Positions 26,977 through 36,137 of a DNA stretch of 64,000 nt are shown here, one piece after another. Under the pieces are notes generated by a model. The model was not told the DNA's origin and did not search any database. It saw nothing but the letters and a program-made list of their open reading frames with translations. The DNA lies in NCBI RefSeq assembly GCF_002926165.1, contig NZ_MAGP01000013.1, positions 1 to 64,000 on the forward strand, in the 5' to 3' direction. Position 1 is the stretch's first letter. Each line of letters begins with the position of its first letter. Source of the stretch: Micromonospora chalcea. Its GTDB lineage: Bacteria > Actinomycetota > Actinomycetes > Mycobacteriales > Micromonosporaceae. Made by a program: the position numbers and the translations under genes.

Positions 26977-27156
26977 TCAGTCCAGGCCGCGCATGATGTG
27001 CGGTTCGCCGTCGTCGTCGCCGAAGCAGCGGTGCAGCACCTGGGCACGCGCCCACAGGTCCAGGCTGCTCGGCGGTCCGACCGGCCCGGTGCCGGCGGGC
27101 GCGCTCAGCACGGGAGCCGGGTCCGGCGGGACCTGCGACGTCACCTCGTCGGTCAT
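26977..27156 (-). CDS. Small hypothetical protein
   Basis: A 59-residue product starting MTDEVTSQVPPDP, with a Pro/Gly-rich first half and a C-terminal helix (SLDLWARAQVLHRCFGDDDGEP). I chose ATG 27156 over an upstream start because TCGTACGAAAGG-like purine sequence precedes it and the extra residues look unlike coding. The family is unknown to me. It ends 10 bp from the convergent 26.6-kb gene. Confidence 0.5.
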   Translation of the reverse strand: MTDEVTSQVPPDPAPVLSAPAGTGPVGPPSSLDLWARAQVLHRCFGDDDGEPHIMRGLD

Positions 27157-27413
27157 GTCCGCCCCTTTCGTCGTACCCATGCTCGCCCTCGGGCGTTTCC
27201 GCCACGTCAACGCCGACGGCGGGGGCGTGGACGCCGCGCCTGATCCGGCGTCGGCCCGTACTCCGGTGACGGTAGTCCGCCGGGCCGCCGAGCACAGCCG
27301 TATTCCCGACGTCGCCGCAGGTGGCGGCCGGTGATCACGCCTGCGGACCGGGCGGGCCGCAGGTGTCGCCGCGCCGGGCGTCGCGACCCTCGCGCCCGGC
27401 TACGGTCTGACGC

Positions 27414-27749
27414 ATGACTGTCGTCCGGTCCATCCTGCTGTTCCTGCTCGCCGCGCTCGCCGAGATCGGCGGCGCCTGGCTGGTGTGGCAGGGCTGGCGG
27501 GAGAACCGCGGCCTGCTCTGGATCGCCGCCGGGGTGATCGCGCTCGGCGCCTACGGATTCGTCGCCACGTTCCAGCCGGACCCGAACTTCGGCCGCATCC
27601 TCGCCGCCTACGGCGGCGTGTTCGTCGCCGGGTCGCTCGCCTGGGGCATGGTCGTCGACAAGTTCCGGCCCGACCGCTACGACCTCGCCGGCGCGGCCAT
27701 CTGCCTGGTCGGCGTCGCGATCATCATGTACGCGCCGCGCGCGAGCTGA
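27414..27749 (+). CDS. UPF0060 (YnfA) family membrane protein
   Basis: A 111-residue protein with four transmembrane helices, matching UPF0060/YnfA, which resembles small multidrug transporters. Landmarks are [21 protein letters not shown] at the N-terminus and the [13 protein letters not shown]-terminus. Its substrate is not established. It stands alone between non-coding DNA of about 200 bp and the sigma-factor gene. Confidence 0.93.
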
Positions 27750-27821
27750 CGGCGCGGTGATGAGTTTCCGCGCCCGTTCCCGTCACACAGACGACGGGAC
27801 ACGACGACGCGGGAGGATGAC

Positions 27822-28823
27822 GTGATGGGTGCGGAGCCACGGCGGGCGGAGCTGGGCGTACGCGATCTGGGTGAGGTCGACGAGCCGGCGTTCGCCGGGC
27901 TGGCGCAGCGGCACCGGCGGGAGCTGCACGTGCACTGCTACCGGATGCTCGGATCGTTCGAGGACGCCGAGGACACCGTCCAGGAGACGTTCCTGCGCGC
28001 CTGGCGGCGGCGCGAGACGTTCGCCGGCCGCTCCACGTTCCGGGCCTGGCTGTACCGCATCGCCACGAACGCCTGCCTGGACCTGCTGGCCAAGTGCCGG
28101 CCCGAGCCCGCGACCGGCGGCGAGGTGCGGTGGCTGCAGCCCTACCCGGACCGGCTGCTCGACGAACTGCCCGCGGCCGGCGCGGACGAGCCGGAAGCCG
28201 TCGCGGTGGCGCGGGAGACGATCGAGCTGGCGTACCTGGTCGCGGTGCAGCACCTCGCGCCACGCCCGCGTGCCGTGCTGATCCTGCGCGACGTACTCGG
28301 CTGGCCGGCCAAGGACGTCGCGGAACTCCTGGGCGACTCGGTCAACTCGGTGAACAGCGCGTTGCAGCGCGCCCGCGCCGGCATGCGGGAACACCTGCCC
28401 GCGCAGCGGCAGGACTGGACCGGCGACGAGACCGACACCCGCACCCGCGAGCTGGTACGCCGCTTCACCGACGCCGCCGTCGCCAAGGACGTCGCCGCTC
28501 TCGCCGCCATGATGCGCGACGACGTGCGCTGCTCGATGCCCCCCACCCCGGGGCTGCAGATCGGCCGGGACGCGGTGGTCGCCGACTGGGTCGCGGACGG
28601 CTTCGAGAGCCTGGGCAGCATGCGGGCCGTGCCCACCGCCGTGAACCGGCAGCCCGCCGTCGCGTTCTACCTGTGGCAGGAGAGCGACGGCGCGTACCTG
28701 CCGCTCACCGTCGACGCCCTGCGCGTCACCGGCGGGGCGATCACCGAGATCGTCACGTTCCACGCCGACCAGTTCCCGCGCCTCGGGCTGCCCGAGCGCC
28801 TGCCGGCCGACCGTACCCCGTAG
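27822..28823 (+). CDS. ECF sigma factor with C-terminal SnoaL-like domain (SigG/TIGR02960-like)
   Basis: The 333-residue protein has sigma region 2 (about 30-100, with HCYRMLGSFEDAEDTVQETFLRAWR) and region 4 (about 150-205, RAVLILRDVLGWPAKDVAELL). A SnoaL/NTF2-like domain follows from about residue 215, as in the SigG-type ECF group, where that domain may replace an anti-sigma factor. It starts at GTG 27822 (or the ATG just after), with GGAGG 5-8 nt upstream. The downstream gene begins inside its stop codon, so expression is coupled. Confidence 0.93.
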   Translation: MMGAEPRRAELGVRDLGEVDEPAFAGLAQRHRRELHVHCYRMLGSFEDAEDTVQETFLRAWRRRETFAGRSTFRAWLYRIATNACLDLLAKCRPEPATGGEVRWLQPYPDRLLDELPAAGADEPEAVAVARETIELAYLVAVQHLAPRPRAVLILRDVLGWPAKDVAELLGDSVNSVNSALQRARAGMREHLPAQRQDWTGDETDTRTRELVRRFTDAAVAKDVAALAAMMRDDVRCSMPPTPGLQIGRDAVVADWVADGFESLGSMRAVPTAVNRQPAVAFYLWQESDGAYLPLTVDALRVTGGAITEIVTFHADQFPRLGLPERLPADRTP

Positions 28824-29509
28824 TGCCGGTGCGGACGCTCGCGCTGCCCGGCGGCGCGCGCGTCGCGGTGGTCGCGGCCCAGTGGCAGCACGCGTACGGC
28901 GTGGTCACACGCGGACGGGTGCAGCTGGAGCTACGCGACGGCGCGCCCGGGCCGGTCCTGCGCCGCGACGCCGGTTTCTGGCTGCGCGACACCGGAGTAC
29001 GCGCGCTGCGCAACCCCGGCCGTCGTACCGCGACGGTACGAGTCCTGACCCCCGACTTCTGGAGGAGCGACATGATCAGCAGCACCGGCACCGGCGTGGG
29101 CTCTCGCCGTTCGCACGGCTTCCGGCGGCTCGCCGTCACCGGCGTCGTCGCCACACTCGGCGCGATGACTGCAACCACGCTCGGCGCGGCGCTCGCGCGG
29201 GCCGCCGGCGTCGACTTCGCGATCCCGGACGGCGGTGACGAGGCCATCCCGCTCGGCGGCTTCACCGTGGTGACCGGATTCTTCTCCCTCGTCGGGGTCG
29301 TCATCGCCGCCGTACTGCTGCGGTTCAGCGCGCGTCCCGCGTCGCGGTTCGTGTGGACGGCGGTGGCGCTGACCGCGCTGTCGCTGGCGCCGCCGTTCCT
29401 CGTCGGGGCCGCCGCCACGACGAGCGTCACGCTGGTCGCGCTGCACCTGGTCGCGGCGGCGGTGATGATCCCCGCCCTGACGCGAAGCCTGGGCGCGAGG
29501 ACCGACTGA
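28823..29509 (+). CDS. Cupin-like segment joined in frame to a DUF6069-like membrane protein
   Basis: The GTG at 28823 overlaps the sigma-factor TAG (TAGTG), and the frame runs 228 residues without a stop. Residues 1-82 look like a small cupin-type beta domain (RGRVQLELRDG, then GFWLRDTGVRALRNPG). From residue 84 the sequence becomes a four-helix membrane protein resembling DUF6069. A strong GGAGGAG lies before an in-frame ATG at 29072, so two proteins may be made: a fusion and a shorter 145-residue membrane form. I cannot tell which is used. The sigma factor next door may control both. Confidence 0.7.
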   Translation: MPVRTLALPGGARVAVVAAQWQHAYGVVTRGRVQLELRDGAPGPVLRRDAGFWLRDTGVRALRNPGRRTATVRVLTPDFWRSDMISSTGTGVGSRRSHGFRRLAVTGVVATLGAMTATTLGAALARAAGVDFAIPDGGDEAIPLGGFTVVTGFFSLVGVVIAAVLLRFSARPASRFVWTAVALTALSLAPPFLVGAAATTSVTLVALHLVAAAVMIPALTRSLGARTD

Positions 29510-29655
29510 CACTCCGCTCCCGGTGAGTGGGCTGGGCCACAAAACATTCTCGATTCGCAGGGTTCGATCGAAGACGTGCGGGCACTCCGATATGGACCGA
29601 ACGCCGGGCGCCGCCAGTCGGCGCCCGGCGCCACGTTCGACCGAGAGGTGACACC

Positions 29656-30057
29656 ATGACCTTCCGCGCCAGGCTCGTCGGAGCCGCACTCGCCGGGACG
29701 CTCGCCGCCGGTGCATCGGCACTGGCTGGGGCCTCCGCGGCCAGCGCGCAGGCCGAACCCTGCGTTCAGCGCATCGCCGTGGTGAACAACGCCGCCTTCG
29801 TGATGTCCTTCAGCGTTCAGGCGAGCAACGGTCTGGAGACGGCGAACACCGACAACTACCCGATCAACCAGTCGCGGACGATCGATCTCACCACCACGGC
29901 GCTGCCGGTCGGCGCCGACGTCCGCCCGGTGGTCGACGCGGTGGCCGGCGCGACGCGGACCCCGAGCAGCTTCGTGTCGTACTGCGAGAACGGGCAGACC
30001 GCCACGTACTCGGTGACCGGGACGACGTACGACTACTCGGTCACGCTGATCGGCTGA
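29656..30057 (+). CDS. Secreted hypothetical protein
   Basis: A 133-residue protein with a clear signal peptide (residues about 1-32, cleavage after ASAASAQA). The mature domain is about 100 residues of beta-rich sequence with two cysteines (CVQRIAVVNN and SYCENGQ) likely to pair. I recognise no catalytic motif. ATG 29656 has GAGAGG upstream. It stands alone and is followed by a hairpin. It could be a small extracellular binding or spore-surface protein, but this is a guess from topology. Confidence 0.72.
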   Translation: MTFRARLVGAALAGTLAAGASALAGASAASAQAEPCVQRIAVVNNAAFVMSFSVQASNGLETANTDNYPINQSRTIDLTTTALPVGADVRPVVDAVAGATRTPSSFVSYCENGQTATYSVTGTTYDYSVTLIG

Positions 30058-30075
30058 CCGGCACGTCGACGCTTC

Positions 30076-30104
30076 GGGGCGTCCGCCGCCATGGCGGGCG
30101 CCCC
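30076..30104 (+). terminator. Hairpin after the secreted-protein gene
   Basis: GGGGCG (30076-30081) plus CCGCC pairs with GGCGG and CGCCCC (30099-30104) around a 5-nt loop. It lies 19 nt past the stop codon at 30057. Confidence 0.65.
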
Positions 30105-30128
30105 GCGCTCGTACGCTACTTTGACCGG

Positions 30129-30530
30129 GTGCCCGTACCCCGGCTGATTCCCATCGCGCACGAGCCCGGCCACCGGACGGACACGATCGGCCGCTACGAC
30201 GAAGGGCTGTTCCTCGCCTCGGCGTGGGACCACCACGCGTACGTGCACCTGTTCGACCACGACGGGACGTACCGGAACTCGACCATTACGCGGGTTCCGC
30301 ATCGAGGCGCGCTGAGCGAGGCGCTCGACGGGCTGCTCGCGAGCCTGCCCGGCAGGTCGTACGGCGACATCGCCGTACGACCGTTCCAGACCCGTCAGGA
30401 CGGCGTCGTGTTCGGTCTGGTCGACGAGTCCGGCGACCGGGCAGGCGACGGCAGCCACGTCGACTGGGTCGAGCTGTATCCGGATCGCCTCGGATTCCAC
30501 GAGCCATGGGACGGCCTCTACGACACGTGA
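30129..30530 (+). CDS. Hypothetical protein at the left edge of the mobile island
   Basis: A 133-residue soluble protein beginning with GTG (MPVPRLIPIAHEPGH). It has a regular alpha/beta composition, strings of Asp/His (SAWDHHAYVHLFDHDGTYRN) and no membrane helix. I do not recognise the family. Base composition is still close to the chromosome, so I place the island boundary just after it. Confidence 0.62.
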   Translation: MPVPRLIPIAHEPGHRTDTIGRYDEGLFLASAWDHHAYVHLFDHDGTYRNSTITRVPHRGALSEALDGLLASLPGRSYGDIAVRPFQTRQDGVVFGLVDESGDRAGDGSHVDWVELYPDRLGFHEPWDGLYDT

Positions 30531-30667
30531 CGGTTGGCGTTGTGGTCCTCACAGGTCGGAGCTCCGCCAACCGCTCGTTGACGCCGACCCGTTCGTCTTG
30601 CCGGTCAGGGTGCGAGGAAGAAGTACGCCACGACACCCTTGTGATCGGAGTTCGTGTCCCCGGCGGT

Positions 30668-30799
30668 GCGGGCGAGAACATCAAGGCGCTGTCCCTGTAC
30701 CTCGACCACGCCGACCTAAGCTTCACGCTGCGGGTCAACACCTACCTACTGCCGACAAGCGAGGACCGCGCCCGCCGAGTGATTGAGCTTCTGCCGTGC
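30668..30799 (+). pseudogene. Tyrosine recombinase (integrase) C-terminal remnant, left edge
   Basis: Reading frame +2 here encodes ENIKALSLYLDHADLSF, then TLRVNTYLLPTSEDRARR. This is recognisably the C-terminal segment of actinomycete phage/AICE integrases (compare YLGHSDPGFTLRTYTHLMPSS), including the His-x-D and the Tyr of the catalytic HxxR...Y region. The N-terminal 300 or so residues are missing and no integrase start precedes it. It is a scar of a former integrative element. Confidence 0.7.
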
Positions 30800-32623: not shown

Positions 32624-33314
32624 CACTTCCGCCACGCAGACATCCTTGCTCAGCCTGCACACCACTGGCACGCAGACGAACCCACCCTCAGCTTGGGAAT
32701 CCGGTTGAGTCGCCGCTCATGGTCCCGGTAAAGGCTGGTCGTGGGTGCTCGGGCGGTCCGACCCAGCGCTGCGACGGACCTCCGCTGGCCCGTGTTGACC
32801 GCTGTATCGGGCACGTATCGGGCACAGACTCAGGTGAAGCCATGCTTGAACCTCTGTCTTGCAAAGGCTGCTCGGGACCATGGAGGCTCGGCAATCGATG
32901 TCAAGGACTGACTGTGAGCATGGTGGGGCCGGCTCGGAAGTGGTGAGCTGCTAGTCGGCAGCGGTAGGGGTGACTCTAGGTCTGACTGGCTTTATCTTCA
33001 GGGACTTTGCTGTCCTGAACCAGCGGGCTGGTGTGCCGTTGTCGAACTTCTCGCCGACTTCCGCTGTCTGGCGACCGCCAGTCGCCCATCCCCCGGCCGA
33101 ATCCCGCCGGGGTTGCGGACTGCACTTTTCGACCACTGCTGATGGCTGGCGACCCTCGTCGATGAGCAGATGCGGGGCACCGTTGGTTCACCCTGAGGGC
33201 CGGCCACATCGAGGCTCATGCTGCCTCCCTGCTGCATCGCTGCACGACGCCTAGCTGCTTACAGCTGCGGTTCCCACTATGCTGACCCTCTCAGGGTGCG
33301 TGGGAGGGATGAGG
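32624..33314. other. Non-coding or decayed stretch of the island
   Basis: About 690 bp in which I can support no gene. Open frames exist on both strands but lack codon bias, ribosome sites and recognisable motifs. An 11-bp tandem duplication lies at 32804-32825. The sequence is less GC-rich than the core genome. Confidence 0.55.
32804..32825. repeat. Tandem 11-bp duplication
   Basis: GTATCGGGCAC occurs twice in immediate succession (32804-32814 and 32815-32825) within the island. It could be part of an old attachment or regulatory site. This is inferred only from position. Confidence 0.6.
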
Positions 33315-33536
33315 ATGGACTGGCTTTTTCAAGGCCTCGGAACGCTGCTCGTGGGCATCATCCTCGGGGCTACCGGTGATCGGTTGTACATTAACGCAAG
33401 TCGCAAGAAGAGCCTACGGATGACCCAAAAGGCGGGCCGCAACTCAAACCTGTCCCAGGTTGGGCGTGACTCTTACACGTCCGTAGATCCCCAGTTTCAA
33501 AGGTCGGGCGGAAGTGAGCAAGATAGCGAGGTTTAG
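33315..33536 (+). CDS. Small single-helix membrane protein, partner of the LPO_1073-like gene
   Basis: A 73-residue product with one N-terminal hydrophobic helix (WLFQGLGTLLVGIILGATG) and a polar C-terminal tail. The tail contains RNSNLSQVGRDSYTS, a pattern of the Gln-x-Gly-Arg-Asp type seen at the start of several bacterial conflict-system effectors. I chose ATG 33315 because GGAGGG lies 6 nt upstream. It ends 2 bp before the next start codon, so the two genes are almost certainly one operon. Confidence 0.65.
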   Translation: MDWLFQGLGTLLVGIILGATGDRLYINASRKKSLRMTQKAGRNSNLSQVGRDSYTSVDPQFQRSGGSEQDSEV

Positions 33537-33538
33537 GA

Positions 33539-34576
33539 GTGGGGGATCGCCTAGTTCAGCGAGGGGGAGACAATTCCACACTCTATCAGGCAAGCGTTGC
33601 CCACTATGGGATTTCATACGCAGACGCAAAAGAGATCGCGCTCGACGTCTTTCAAAAGAACTTCCTTCAACTATCGGAAGAGGCTGCCGAAGTGGCGGCG
33701 CGTCGAGCCGAGGCGGCCACCGAAGCCTTTTTTAAGCAATTGCAAAGCAAATATCCTGAGGCTATCGCGGCAGCACGTGAGCCAGGCTTCCAGCGAGCGC
33801 TATTCTCAGTGCAACTCAATGCCGCATGTTCAGAAGACGGAGCAATGGATGGGCTGCTAGTAGAGGTCTTAGTAGAACGCGCAAACGAGATTGGGAAATC
33901 GCTCCGACGCATCGTCCTCGACGAAGCCCTCCTCACTATCCCCAAGATTACCACAGCCCAGATGGAGACGCTGTCACTATGCTTCTACCTGAAACAAGTT
34001 GCACACTCGGGCTTCTCGCACTCGCATGACAGTGCACTGGAAGCCTTGCACCAGATGCTTAGGATCTGCGTTGCACCCTTCCAAGATGCTGCAATTTCTC
34101 TGAAGGAACTTCGCCACTTACAGTACGCCGGGTGTATTTCTATATCCGCTGGCTCTTCCACTGTCGGCGAGACGTATGCGAGAACGTATCCTGGCTTGTT
34201 CTGCAATCCCATTAATCCCCATTCCGTCAAGGACGTACTGCGGCCTGCCTTTATTCCACATCCCGAACATCGTGCCAGCCTTCGAATACCGGTTGTCAAA
34301 CGCGAGGATCTCGACCCCTACCTTGAAGGAAAGGGCATGATCGAGCATCGTTCCGACATCGAAAGCATTCTGTCCGCGAACTCAATGCCCCACAATCTTG
34401 TTCTCGACAAGTTGTGCGAGGCGGGCGGAGCGGTGGAGACAGTCCTTCGGAAATGGGAAGCCGACCCCCGCAACATGAGCTACGTTGAGCTAACGTCCGT
34501 AGGCACAGCGATCGGTCACGCCAATCTGGTACGTGCGACCGCATTCTCAACGCCGTTAGAAGTTTGGATTCCCTGA
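33539..34576 (+). CDS. LPO_1073/Vpar_1526-like family protein
   Basis: A 345-residue soluble protein. The N-terminus GGDNSTLYQASVAHYGISY, a long helical middle rich in Ala/Glu, and a C-terminus ending TAIGHANLVRATAF...LEVWIP resemble what I remember of the LPO_1073/Vpar_1526 family, often found on mobile or variable loci. Its molecular function is not known. Lower GC and relaxed codon use mark it as transferred. It follows a small membrane protein by 2 bp. The IS element begins at or inside its stop codon, so the native 3' end may be altered. Confidence 0.68.
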   Translation: MGDRLVQRGGDNSTLYQASVAHYGISYADAKEIALDVFQKNFLQLSEEAAEVAARRAEAATEAFFKQLQSKYPEAIAAAREPGFQRALFSVQLNAACSEDGAMDGLLVEVLVERANEIGKSLRRIVLDEALLTIPKITTAQMETLSLCFYLKQVAHSGFSHSHDSALEALHQMLRICVAPFQDAAISLKELRHLQYAGCISISAGSSTVGETYARTYPGLFCNPINPHSVKDVLRPAFIPHPEHRASLRIPVVKREDLDPYLEGKGMIEHRSDIESILSANSMPHNLVLDKLCEAGGAVETVLRKWEADPRNMSYVELTSVGTAIGHANLVRATAFSTPLEVWIP

Positions 34577-35456
34577 GAGGACGTCTGATTCGCGTATTTT
34601 GCATGTGTTGTGGTTTTAGGGGTTCTCGCCGGGTTGGGGTGGTTTCGGTGGTGAGGCGTTTGGCGAGGTTGTCGATCATGGCGAGGGTGATCATGCTGGC
34701 GGAGTTGTCGGGGCGGGTTTCGTAGTCGCGGACGAGTCGGCGGTGGTGCATGAGCCAGCCGATGGTGCGTTCGACGACCCATCGGCGTTTGACGACGCTG
34801 AAGCCTTTGATCTGTGGGTCTTTGGTGACGATCTCAACGTCGACGCCGAGGGCGGCGCCGTGTTCGACGACACGGTTTTTGAAGCCGGCGTCGACCCAAG
34901 TTTTGGCCAGGGTGGGGTAGGTGGTGGCCTGGTCGAGCAGGTCGATGCCGATGGTGTTGTCGCTGGCGCTGGCGGCGGTGACGATGACGGCGAGGAGCAG
35001 GCCGAGGGTGTCGGTGATGATGCCCCGTTTGCGGCCGACGATCTTCTTCCCTGCGTCGGTGCCTTGGGTGGACAGTGGGACGTTGGTGGAGGTCTTCACA
35101 CTTTGGCTGTCCATGATGGGTGCGATGGTGCGGCCGTGGTGGTCGCGGACGAGGCCGGTGAGCTGGTAGTTGAGTTCGGTGAAGATGCCTTCCTTGCTCC
35201 AGGCGGCGAAGTAGCCGTAGACCGTCGCGTGGGGCGGGAAGTCGTGGGGCGGGAAGTCGTGGGGCAGGTAGCGCCAGGCGATGCCGGTGCGGTTGACGTA
35301 CAGGATGGCGTTGAAGATGTCGCGCAGGTCGTGGCTGGGGGCGCGGCCGCTGACGCCGGCGTCGGTGCGGGCCTGCCGCCAGGCGGTCAGGCGGGGTGCG
35401 ATCAGCGCCCACCGGGCGTCGGACAGGTCGGACGGATAGGGTCGCCGTGCGGTCAT
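34296..35456 (-). CDS. IS5-family DDE transposase with read-through C-terminus
   Basis: The first 294 or so residues match IS5-family transposases: RPYPSDLSDARWALI near the start, IMDSQSVKTS carrying the first Asp, TLAKTWVDAGFKN with the second, and RRWVVERTIGWLMHHRRL with the catalytic Glu. The frame then runs about 92 residues past the element end, antisense to the neighbouring gene, so the extra tail is not native. A 15-bp tandem duplication near the N-terminus repeats HDFPP. Both oddities make activity uncertain. Confidence 0.85.
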   Translation of the reverse strand: MTARRPYPSDLSDARWALIAPRLTAWRQARTDAGVSGRAPSHDLRDIFNAILYVNRTGIAWRYLPHDFPPHDFPPHATVYGYFAAWSKEGIFTELNYQLTGLVRDHHGRTIAPIMDSQSVKTSTNVPLSTQGTDAGKKIVGRKRGIITDTLGLLLAVIVTAASASDNTIGIDLLDQATTYPTLAKTWVDAGFKNRVVEHGAALGVDVEIVTKDPQIKGFSVVKRRWVVERTIGWLMHHRRLVRDYETRPDNSASMITLAMIDNLAKRLTTETTPTRREPLKPQHMQNTRIRRPLRESKLLTALRMRSHVPDWRDRSLCLRTLAQRSSCCGGRLPISEGLSPPLRPPRTTCREQDCGALSSRTECFRCRNDARSCPFLQGRGRDPRV

Positions 35457-35954: not shown

Positions 35955-36137
35955 CCGAGCACCACGCTGCGCGTCTACACCCACCTCCTGCCGAGCAGCG
36001 AGGACCGCACCCGCCGAGCGATCGACGCCGCCTTCGGGCACGGCCCGACCGACCCCGACGGCCTGGCGACGGCCCAGCCGGGTGCCGGAAGAGTGTTTGC
36101 GCAGCTCAGGAAGGGTGACGGCGTCACTTGGCGTTGA
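35955..36137 (+). pseudogene. Tyrosine recombinase C-terminal remnant, right edge
   Basis: The frame reads STTLRVYTHLLPSSEDRTRR, then AIDAAFGHG, the very C-terminus of an actinomycete integrase with its catalytic Tyr. Everything before it is missing or replaced by the IS110 fragment. It overlaps the last codons of metH on the other strand. Its DNA closely resembles the left-edge remnant near 30.7 kb, in the same orientation. Confidence 0.78.

Follow-up and report, generated by a model that had tools for sequence, protein, structure and literature searches.

What do two adjacent genes of Micromonospora chalcea, one for a small predicted membrane protein (gene A) and one for a larger protein of an uncharacterised family (gene B), do together? 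The first-pass annotation of the window, the 64,000-nucleotide stretch of DNA analysed here, had placed them 2 bp apart, and inspection of the open reading frames found both at those positions. The genes lie head to tail, with 2 bases between the stop codon of A and the start codon of B. Gene A runs from an ATG at 33315 to the TAG at 33534–33536 (a second in-frame ATG lies at 33309), and gene B from a GTG at 33539 to 34576. The features of the window are as follows.

33315–33536, + strand: gene A, 73 residues, helix and C-terminal motif, likely effector (open reading frame; alignment with 15 upstream partners of other LPO genes)
33318–33407, + strand: predicted helix of A, residues 2–31 (AlphaFold; hydrophobic residues 3–21)
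33426–33479, + strand: effector-side motif QKAGRNSNLSQVGRDSYT, A residues 38–55 (motif score and register)
33539–34576, + strand: gene B, 345 residues, LPO_1073/Vpar_1526 protein, likely sensor (profile match, AlphaFold)
33557–33610, + strand: receptor-side motif QRGGDNSTLYQASVAHYG, B residues 7–24, in the disordered N terminus (motif score, AlphaFold)
33608–34570, + strand: LPO_1073 core domain, helical (NCBIfam profile, AlphaFold; no convincing match to a solved fold)
34296–35456, − strand: transposase-like open reading frame directly 3′ of B (by eye); the frame extends antisense into the end of B
30724–30786, no strand assigned: left copy of a 63-bp repeat, at the end of a tyrosine-recombinase gene (sibling alignment)
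35963–36025, no strand assigned: right copy of the 63-bp repeat, beside a metH-like gene (sibling alignment)

Comparison with NCBIfam placed B in the LPO_1073/Vpar_1526 family (NF045477, LPO for short). It scored 224.8 bits against a cut-off of 45 over the full profile (1–257), which bears out the earlier remark that the second protein resembles a family without known function. The family proteins listed number 52, B included. Under the family names, the literature yielded a Veillonella proteome and no functional paper, as far as the available portions of these sources extend. The AlphaFold model of B was mostly helical (mean pLDDT 86.8), and residues 1–23, which bear the motif, were the only stretch with a pLDDT below 50. 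A fold check had been suggested for this 345-residue protein; no housekeeping-enzyme fold was seen, and comparison with the solved structures of the PDB gave no convincing match. No NTPase family was found in Pfam or NCBIfam at E ≤ 1, and no enzyme family was matched. Against PADLOC, B matched PDC-S47 only (E = 0.0027, 15.3 bits), which falls short of membership in a curated model. The family is rare and scattered: it occurred in 2 of 396 Actinomycetota genomes and, within the same taxonomic family, in 3 of 350, the genome studied here included in both counts. The full module was present in 6 of 5426 E. coli genomes, and a seventh has only the portal-side end of the query. LPO_1073 is a conserved, uncharacterised family, to which a role is proposed here.

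In the AlphaFold model of A, residues 2–31 formed a helix and the remainder was unstructured, at a mean pLDDT of only 59.9. The customary hydropathy threshold for a membrane helix is 1.6 over 19 residues; the best such stretch of A reached 1.53, slightly below it. A belongs to a one-helix membrane type and carries W-L-F-Q-G-L-G as a variant of the N-K-E-W-x-F-S-G-I-G signature. A and its relatives contain almost no sequence beyond the helix and the motif, and A matched none of the PADLOC models. When the sequences were shuffled, the observed family-motif score was reached by 2 of 5000 shuffles of the tail of A and by 0 of 5000 shuffles of the first 60 residues of B. The two segments singled out in the first-pass annotation, RNSNLSQVGRDS in A and GGDNSTLYQA in B, were both found; the N-terminal placement holds for B only, as that of A lies in the C-terminal half.

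The peptide patterns used to find further genome loci were taken from the LPO core and did not draw on the motif. Open reading frames at these loci were called with our own script from the first possible start, which makes lengths at the N terminus approximate. Directly 5′ of the LPO gene, 36 of 37 genome loci encoded an intact small protein of membrane type; at the 37th (L031:7794-8420), the membrane-protein gene is frameshifted or misassembled. The upstream proteins have 56–152 residues, counted from the first possible start, with a hydrophobic stretch and a C-terminal motif. On viral contigs, the upstream partner was present at 10 of 12 loci, and a further one begins at the LPO gene; the viral contig L046 carries the motif on the LPO side, with no membrane partner seen. 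The pairing spans several bacterial phyla. The tail motif of the membrane proteins reads approximately Q-x-x-G-x-N-S-x-N-x-Q-A-G-x-D-I-x-I, and the N terminus of the LPO protein is a related copy. By pattern, 19 of the 45 pairs compared below, the window included, have the one-helix N-K-E-W-x-F-S-G-I-G protein, and 26 have the other membrane type, often with two hydrophobic stretches.

Two module copies (L119 and L121) lay, by eye, within apparent integron cassette arrays. NKEW-type membrane starts were fused to further domains at L107:1014-2618 and L109:1411-2142, with PDC-M43A matches of 7e-9 and 8e-71, respectively; the L107 fusion adjoins an HNH gene matching PDC-M68A. A seeming fusion of A- and B-type ends (P0113) was discarded, as it ends in an apparent artefact, presumably from a sequencing adapter.

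The motifs of the partners are matched within loci far beyond chance. We compared 45 pairs, namely 43 of the 49 loci, the window, and L052. Left out were L031 (frameshift), L044, L049, and L051 (near-copies), and L046 and L048 (no partner seen; L048 lies at a contig end). The LPO pairs L102, L103, and L143, as well as L101, L110, and L142, were later finds and stand outside the 45. Since the score that chose the motif register rewards Q, G, S, and Q at defined positions, these residues are invariant in part by construction; the permutations are unaffected by this bias, since the register was kept fixed. The mean BLOSUM62 sum was 34.2 within loci as compared to 21.9 between loci, and the former was reached in 0 of 20,000 permutations. 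Motif distances correlated between the two sides (0.64; 0 of 5000 permutations), and the partial Mantel value was 0.48 given the similarity of the LPO core and the membrane part (0 of 5000). The match was also found within either membrane type (one-helix, 3 of 20,000 permutations; the other, 0 of 20,000) and among the 21 loci with cores less than 50% identical (0 of 20,000). In 3 of 12 genomes, a profile of the membrane protein also hit the beginning of the LPO gene next to it (E = 3.7e-7, 8e-6, and 0.0014), with weak matches in two more (0.05 and 0.17).

Taken by itself, the window pair is a modest match, agreeing at 6 of the first 13 motif positions. The true partner of A ranks third of 46 receptor motifs, and Leu at motif position 9 occurs in no other of the 45 pairs on either side, but here on both. 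The same-genus pair L143 has Gln at position 9 on both sides; with the register set by eye, its partner comes no higher than 22nd of 46. Plain BLASTP of A against B misses the motif, the best match being unrelated (E = 0.43). As the window pair alone matches modestly and BLASTP misses it, the case for the motif rests on the family-wide comparison. The matched motifs across the family support the earlier view that an Asn-Ser-x-x-x-Gln segment common to A and B is meaningful.

The module is modular: motif and effector differ together between loci. L142, from the same taxonomic family, has an LPO core with a different motif, RSVAAANISGVASTGD (L142:5078-6157), and its upstream 157-residue protein, which does not resemble the NKEW type, has RSIAIGHNSGVASTGD at its end; this matches the LPO-side motif at E = 5e-5. 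The metagenome LPO relative P0003 has an N terminus similar to that of L142, and the motif type of both reads G-x-R-S/A-x-A ... S-G-V-A-x-T-G-D. At L101, an NKEW-type protein precedes a 461-residue protein with a matching motif (E = 2e-8). This genome gave no LPO match, and the 461-residue protein had none in NCBIfam (E ≤ 1), PADLOC (1e-5), or the PDB. At L110 and L118, the two-stretch version of the membrane protein is followed by a 195-residue protein, and the two share a matched odd variant, N-S-x-Q-Y-x-S-x-G (E = 5e-6); a gene for 159 residues comes next, and then a 640-residue ATPase, the first 147 residues of which match LmuB (5.4e-20). P0011, one metagenome protein among the 52 listed relatives, is the reverse case: its residues 1–117 match HNH effectors of CBASS (3e-18) and precede an LPO core without the motif. 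Pfam gave no HNH match for it at E ≤ 0.05. Because of the swaps at L142, L101, and L110/L118 and the reverse case of P0011, the motif and the membrane protein together appear to stand in for an effector domain that is otherwise built in.

The stretch L118:4566-7788 constitutes a Lamassu-type operon that opens with motif proteins and not with the usual enzyme-domain LmuA. The N-terminal domain of LmuA is normally an enzyme, according to the accessible part of PMC10586767. Judging from its position, the 195-residue protein of L118, which had no PADLOC match at E ≤ 0.01, would replace LmuA.

The GC content was 0.58–0.62 in the 2-kb steps between 32 and 36 kb, as compared to 0.66–0.78 elsewhere in the window. 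This drop confirms the lower-GC island reported at first pass, and the reading as a mobile two-gene conflict module is supported. The two copies of the 63-bp repeat are 86–87% identical and flank A and B on either side. Six sibling genomes were compared with the window. In two of them (G204 and G1209), both copies align to a single place beside metH, and the DNA between the repeats of the window is unaligned there, except for 80 bp that match at another place in the G1209 stretch. The remaining four siblings gave no alignment left of 35963. The repeat site is the end of a 411-residue frame in G204 (Phage_integrase, 2.2e-17) and of a 158-residue frame in G1209 (Phage_integrase, 2.4e-6). A recombinase-gene end that recurs beside metH (35963–36025) in the siblings points to an integration hotspot at this place. 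Positions 27001–30667 of the window are also unaligned in the siblings, so the foreign stretch has no fixed left border.

In E. coli, all six full matches extend to a phage portal gene. Three contexts were read, and in each the pair is flanked by the replication endonuclease on one side and the portal gene of a P2-like prophage on the other; this position is described as a tested defence hotspot in the available parts of PMC9519451 and PMC9122126. The E. coli membrane protein gave a weak match to a 2TM effector (0.017). Beside the LPO pair of L052, three genes (L052:6690-9440) match PADLOC Hp1, Hp2, and Hp3 over their full length, and L055, where the pair lies at L055:6047-7159, has the same protein accessions. 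These would correspond to the three-gene P2 system without clear domains that, as excerpted, Rousset and colleagues found to protect against P1 (PMC9519451 / PMC9122126). Beside the pair of L054 (L054:3847-5616) lie an RTasHEPN-like gene (1.1e-5) and a gene with a sub-threshold Abi_C match. At L012, a Lamassu pair adjoins the module (LmuA, 3.5e-122; LmuB, 3.8e-232).

Defence neighbours were compared between 113 open reading frames of 11 loci and 106 at 11 control places in the same genomes. Module proteins were removed before the defence scans: three (L006, L012, and L028) and one (L032). The case loci also gave PDC-S66 (2.1e-69) and ThsB (3.8e-40) among the best 25 of 72 families, while the controls reached 4.4e-23 at best, with generic enzymes (best 25 of 33 families). 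This matched comparison, a small one of 11 loci, points the same way and favours a defence link. Of ten proteins scanned singly, three gave matches: the L027 reverse transcriptase and both Lamassu genes. The reverse transcriptase was discounted as probably belonging to a group II intron, and an SspA/DndA match near copies as probably a cysteine desulfurase. Scanned without controls, 108 open reading frames of 25 further loci matched type IIG and type I restriction enzymes and a type II methyltransferase, along with the PDC-S37, MkoA/MkoC, and MADS models (best 25 of 36 families). The candidate defence role put forward at first pass gains support from the E. coli P2 hotspot, the Lamassu and restriction genes near some copies, and the HNH fusion in P0011. 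The neighbourhood survey proposed with it thus found defence genes near copies, in a controlled count that is small (11 loci).

On balance, we consider it probable that A and B form a two-gene abortive-infection switch, in which B senses, its motif templates A, and clustering of A in the membrane leads to death or arrest of the cell. The conservation of the pair, the matched motifs, the joint differences of motif and effector, the disordered motif in the model of B, the mobile setting, and the E. coli hotspot are the observations that support it. As we picture it, B would sense infection, with phage infection as the putative trigger, and its N-terminal motif would nucleate and template the related motif on the tail of A. 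The motifs would bind each other, presumably as a β-arch amyloid. The tails of A would join, the clustered helices may damage the membrane, and the cell would probably be killed or arrested. The tail of A would be cytoplasmic, because basic residues follow the helix.

The motifs may instead bind one to one by ordinary docking, for example by strand pairing, which would recruit or release A without a self-propagating amyloid. All the pairing evidence fits docking equally well, and a search of the PDB with the motif profile found no amyloid structure related to the motif. However, near-symmetric copies, richness in Gln, Asn, and Gly, and terminal placement are traits of amyloid signalling motifs as described in the accessible text of PMC7889193 and PMC8086366, and we regard docking as possible but rather unlikely. 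A toxin–antitoxin pair is a further candidate, with A as a small membrane toxin whose tail is held through the motif by the antitoxin B until infection or loss of B frees it. The small membrane gene coming first, the tight spacing, and the mobile setting would suit such a pair. It is nevertheless unlikely, as an LPO core with HNH in place of the motif (P0011) and a motif–membrane unit joined to a Lamassu-type ATPase (L118) suit an effector-driving sensor better.

The first-pass annotation had cast A as a membrane sensor and B as a cytoplasmic effector, a plan in which A could also be an anchor. B is the larger protein and has no known fold, which leaves room for a hidden enzyme, but A and its relatives have almost nothing beyond the helix and the motif, the LPO core stays constant while the effector type changes, and no enzyme family was matched in B. 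This plan is improbable in our judgement. The roles are probably reversed, with the membrane protein as effector and the LPO protein as sensor, because the membrane part is short, shows no sensing domain, and gives way to other types of effector, and because the LPO part, the larger of the two, carries a nuclease in one relative. Copies on viral contigs and prophages would also agree with a prophage or island pair outside defence, serving lysis timing, the phage's own superinfection exclusion, or membrane anchoring. This we hold to be highly improbable, given that a tested defence hotspot lies at the P2 position (PMC9519451, PMC9122126, in the parts available) and that the motif–membrane unit is also joined to a Lamassu-type operon. 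The abortive-infection switch is the reading we prefer.

The module is a candidate answer to a question raised in the 2021 review 'The expanding scope of amyloid signalling' (PMC7889193, in the part at hand), namely whether signalling amyloids act in NLR-independent bacterial pathways. Tentatively, and with less confidence than in the switch itself, we suggest that the motif may be a general plug of bacterial immunity. It would be an NLR-free prion-like adaptor through which LPO_1073, Lamassu-type, and 461-residue sensors drive a separate membrane-killing effector. It would be traded together with the effector and would function in E. coli prophages as well as in single-celled bacteria, and it may have a common origin with the RHIM of animal necroptosis. 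A prediction is that a Lamassu-type effector domain is replaceable by a short motif and a separate membrane protein. Since full copies are present in E. coli P2-like prophages, the module is amenable to testing in laboratory E. coli. In literature searches on bacterial amyloid signalling, the motif strings, and amyloid with phage defence, no title or abstract opening among the matches listed describes the module; subscription papers lie mostly outside this coverage, and the result is weak evidence of novelty. The motif strings returned an unrelated match only, amyloid or RHIM was mentioned in PMC8195603 in the reference list only, and the motif consensus was not found in the accessible portions of PMC12133306 and PMC7885112.

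Several known systems share parts of this design. Lamassu, or ABC-3C, consists of LmuA, LmuC, and LmuB, according to the available text of PMC10586767. L118 resembles it in having a two-helix motif protein, a 195-residue motif protein, a small gene, and an LmuB-like ATPase, whereas the window has no such ATPase. The likeness to CBASS lies in the HNH region of P0011, which matches CBASS endonuclease effectors (3e-18), and in the E. coli membrane protein, which resembles a 2TM effector (0.017); the module, however, shows no cyclase or SAVED part. The core of RHIM resembles I-Q-I-G or I-Q-V-G, and one of these strings occurs in the effector motifs of 4 of the 45 pairs, a likeness to the RHIM/PP/BASS3 group. 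Most module motifs differ from it in reading I-Q-A-G or Y-Q-A-G, and neither the motif profile nor a peptide search matched the RHIM structures in the PDB.

Dyrka 2020 is said to be the source paper of the pairs of bacterial amyloid signalling (BASS). In these, the proposed action is the templating of a Bell-type membrane effector by an NLR (PMC7889193), and the genes are adjacent, with the motif at the end of the effector and at the beginning of the receptor (PMC7889193, PMC8086366; both as excerpted). Window-type pairs are likewise adjacent, and the motifs of the partners are alike, C-terminal in the small membrane-type effector and N-terminal in its partner. In L142, the same LPO core is combined with a motif of a different type and a helical effector. 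A difference is that the receptor is not an NLR or NTPase, B being a 345-residue helical protein with no NTPase family (Pfam/NCBIfam, E ≤ 1). The effector A is predicted to be a single helix with a tail, which would set it apart from a Bell bundle. In addition, the module occurs in single-celled bacteria and in an E. coli prophage. By this analogy, the module appears to work like a BASS pair, but it is not one as described, because its receptor is not an NLR.
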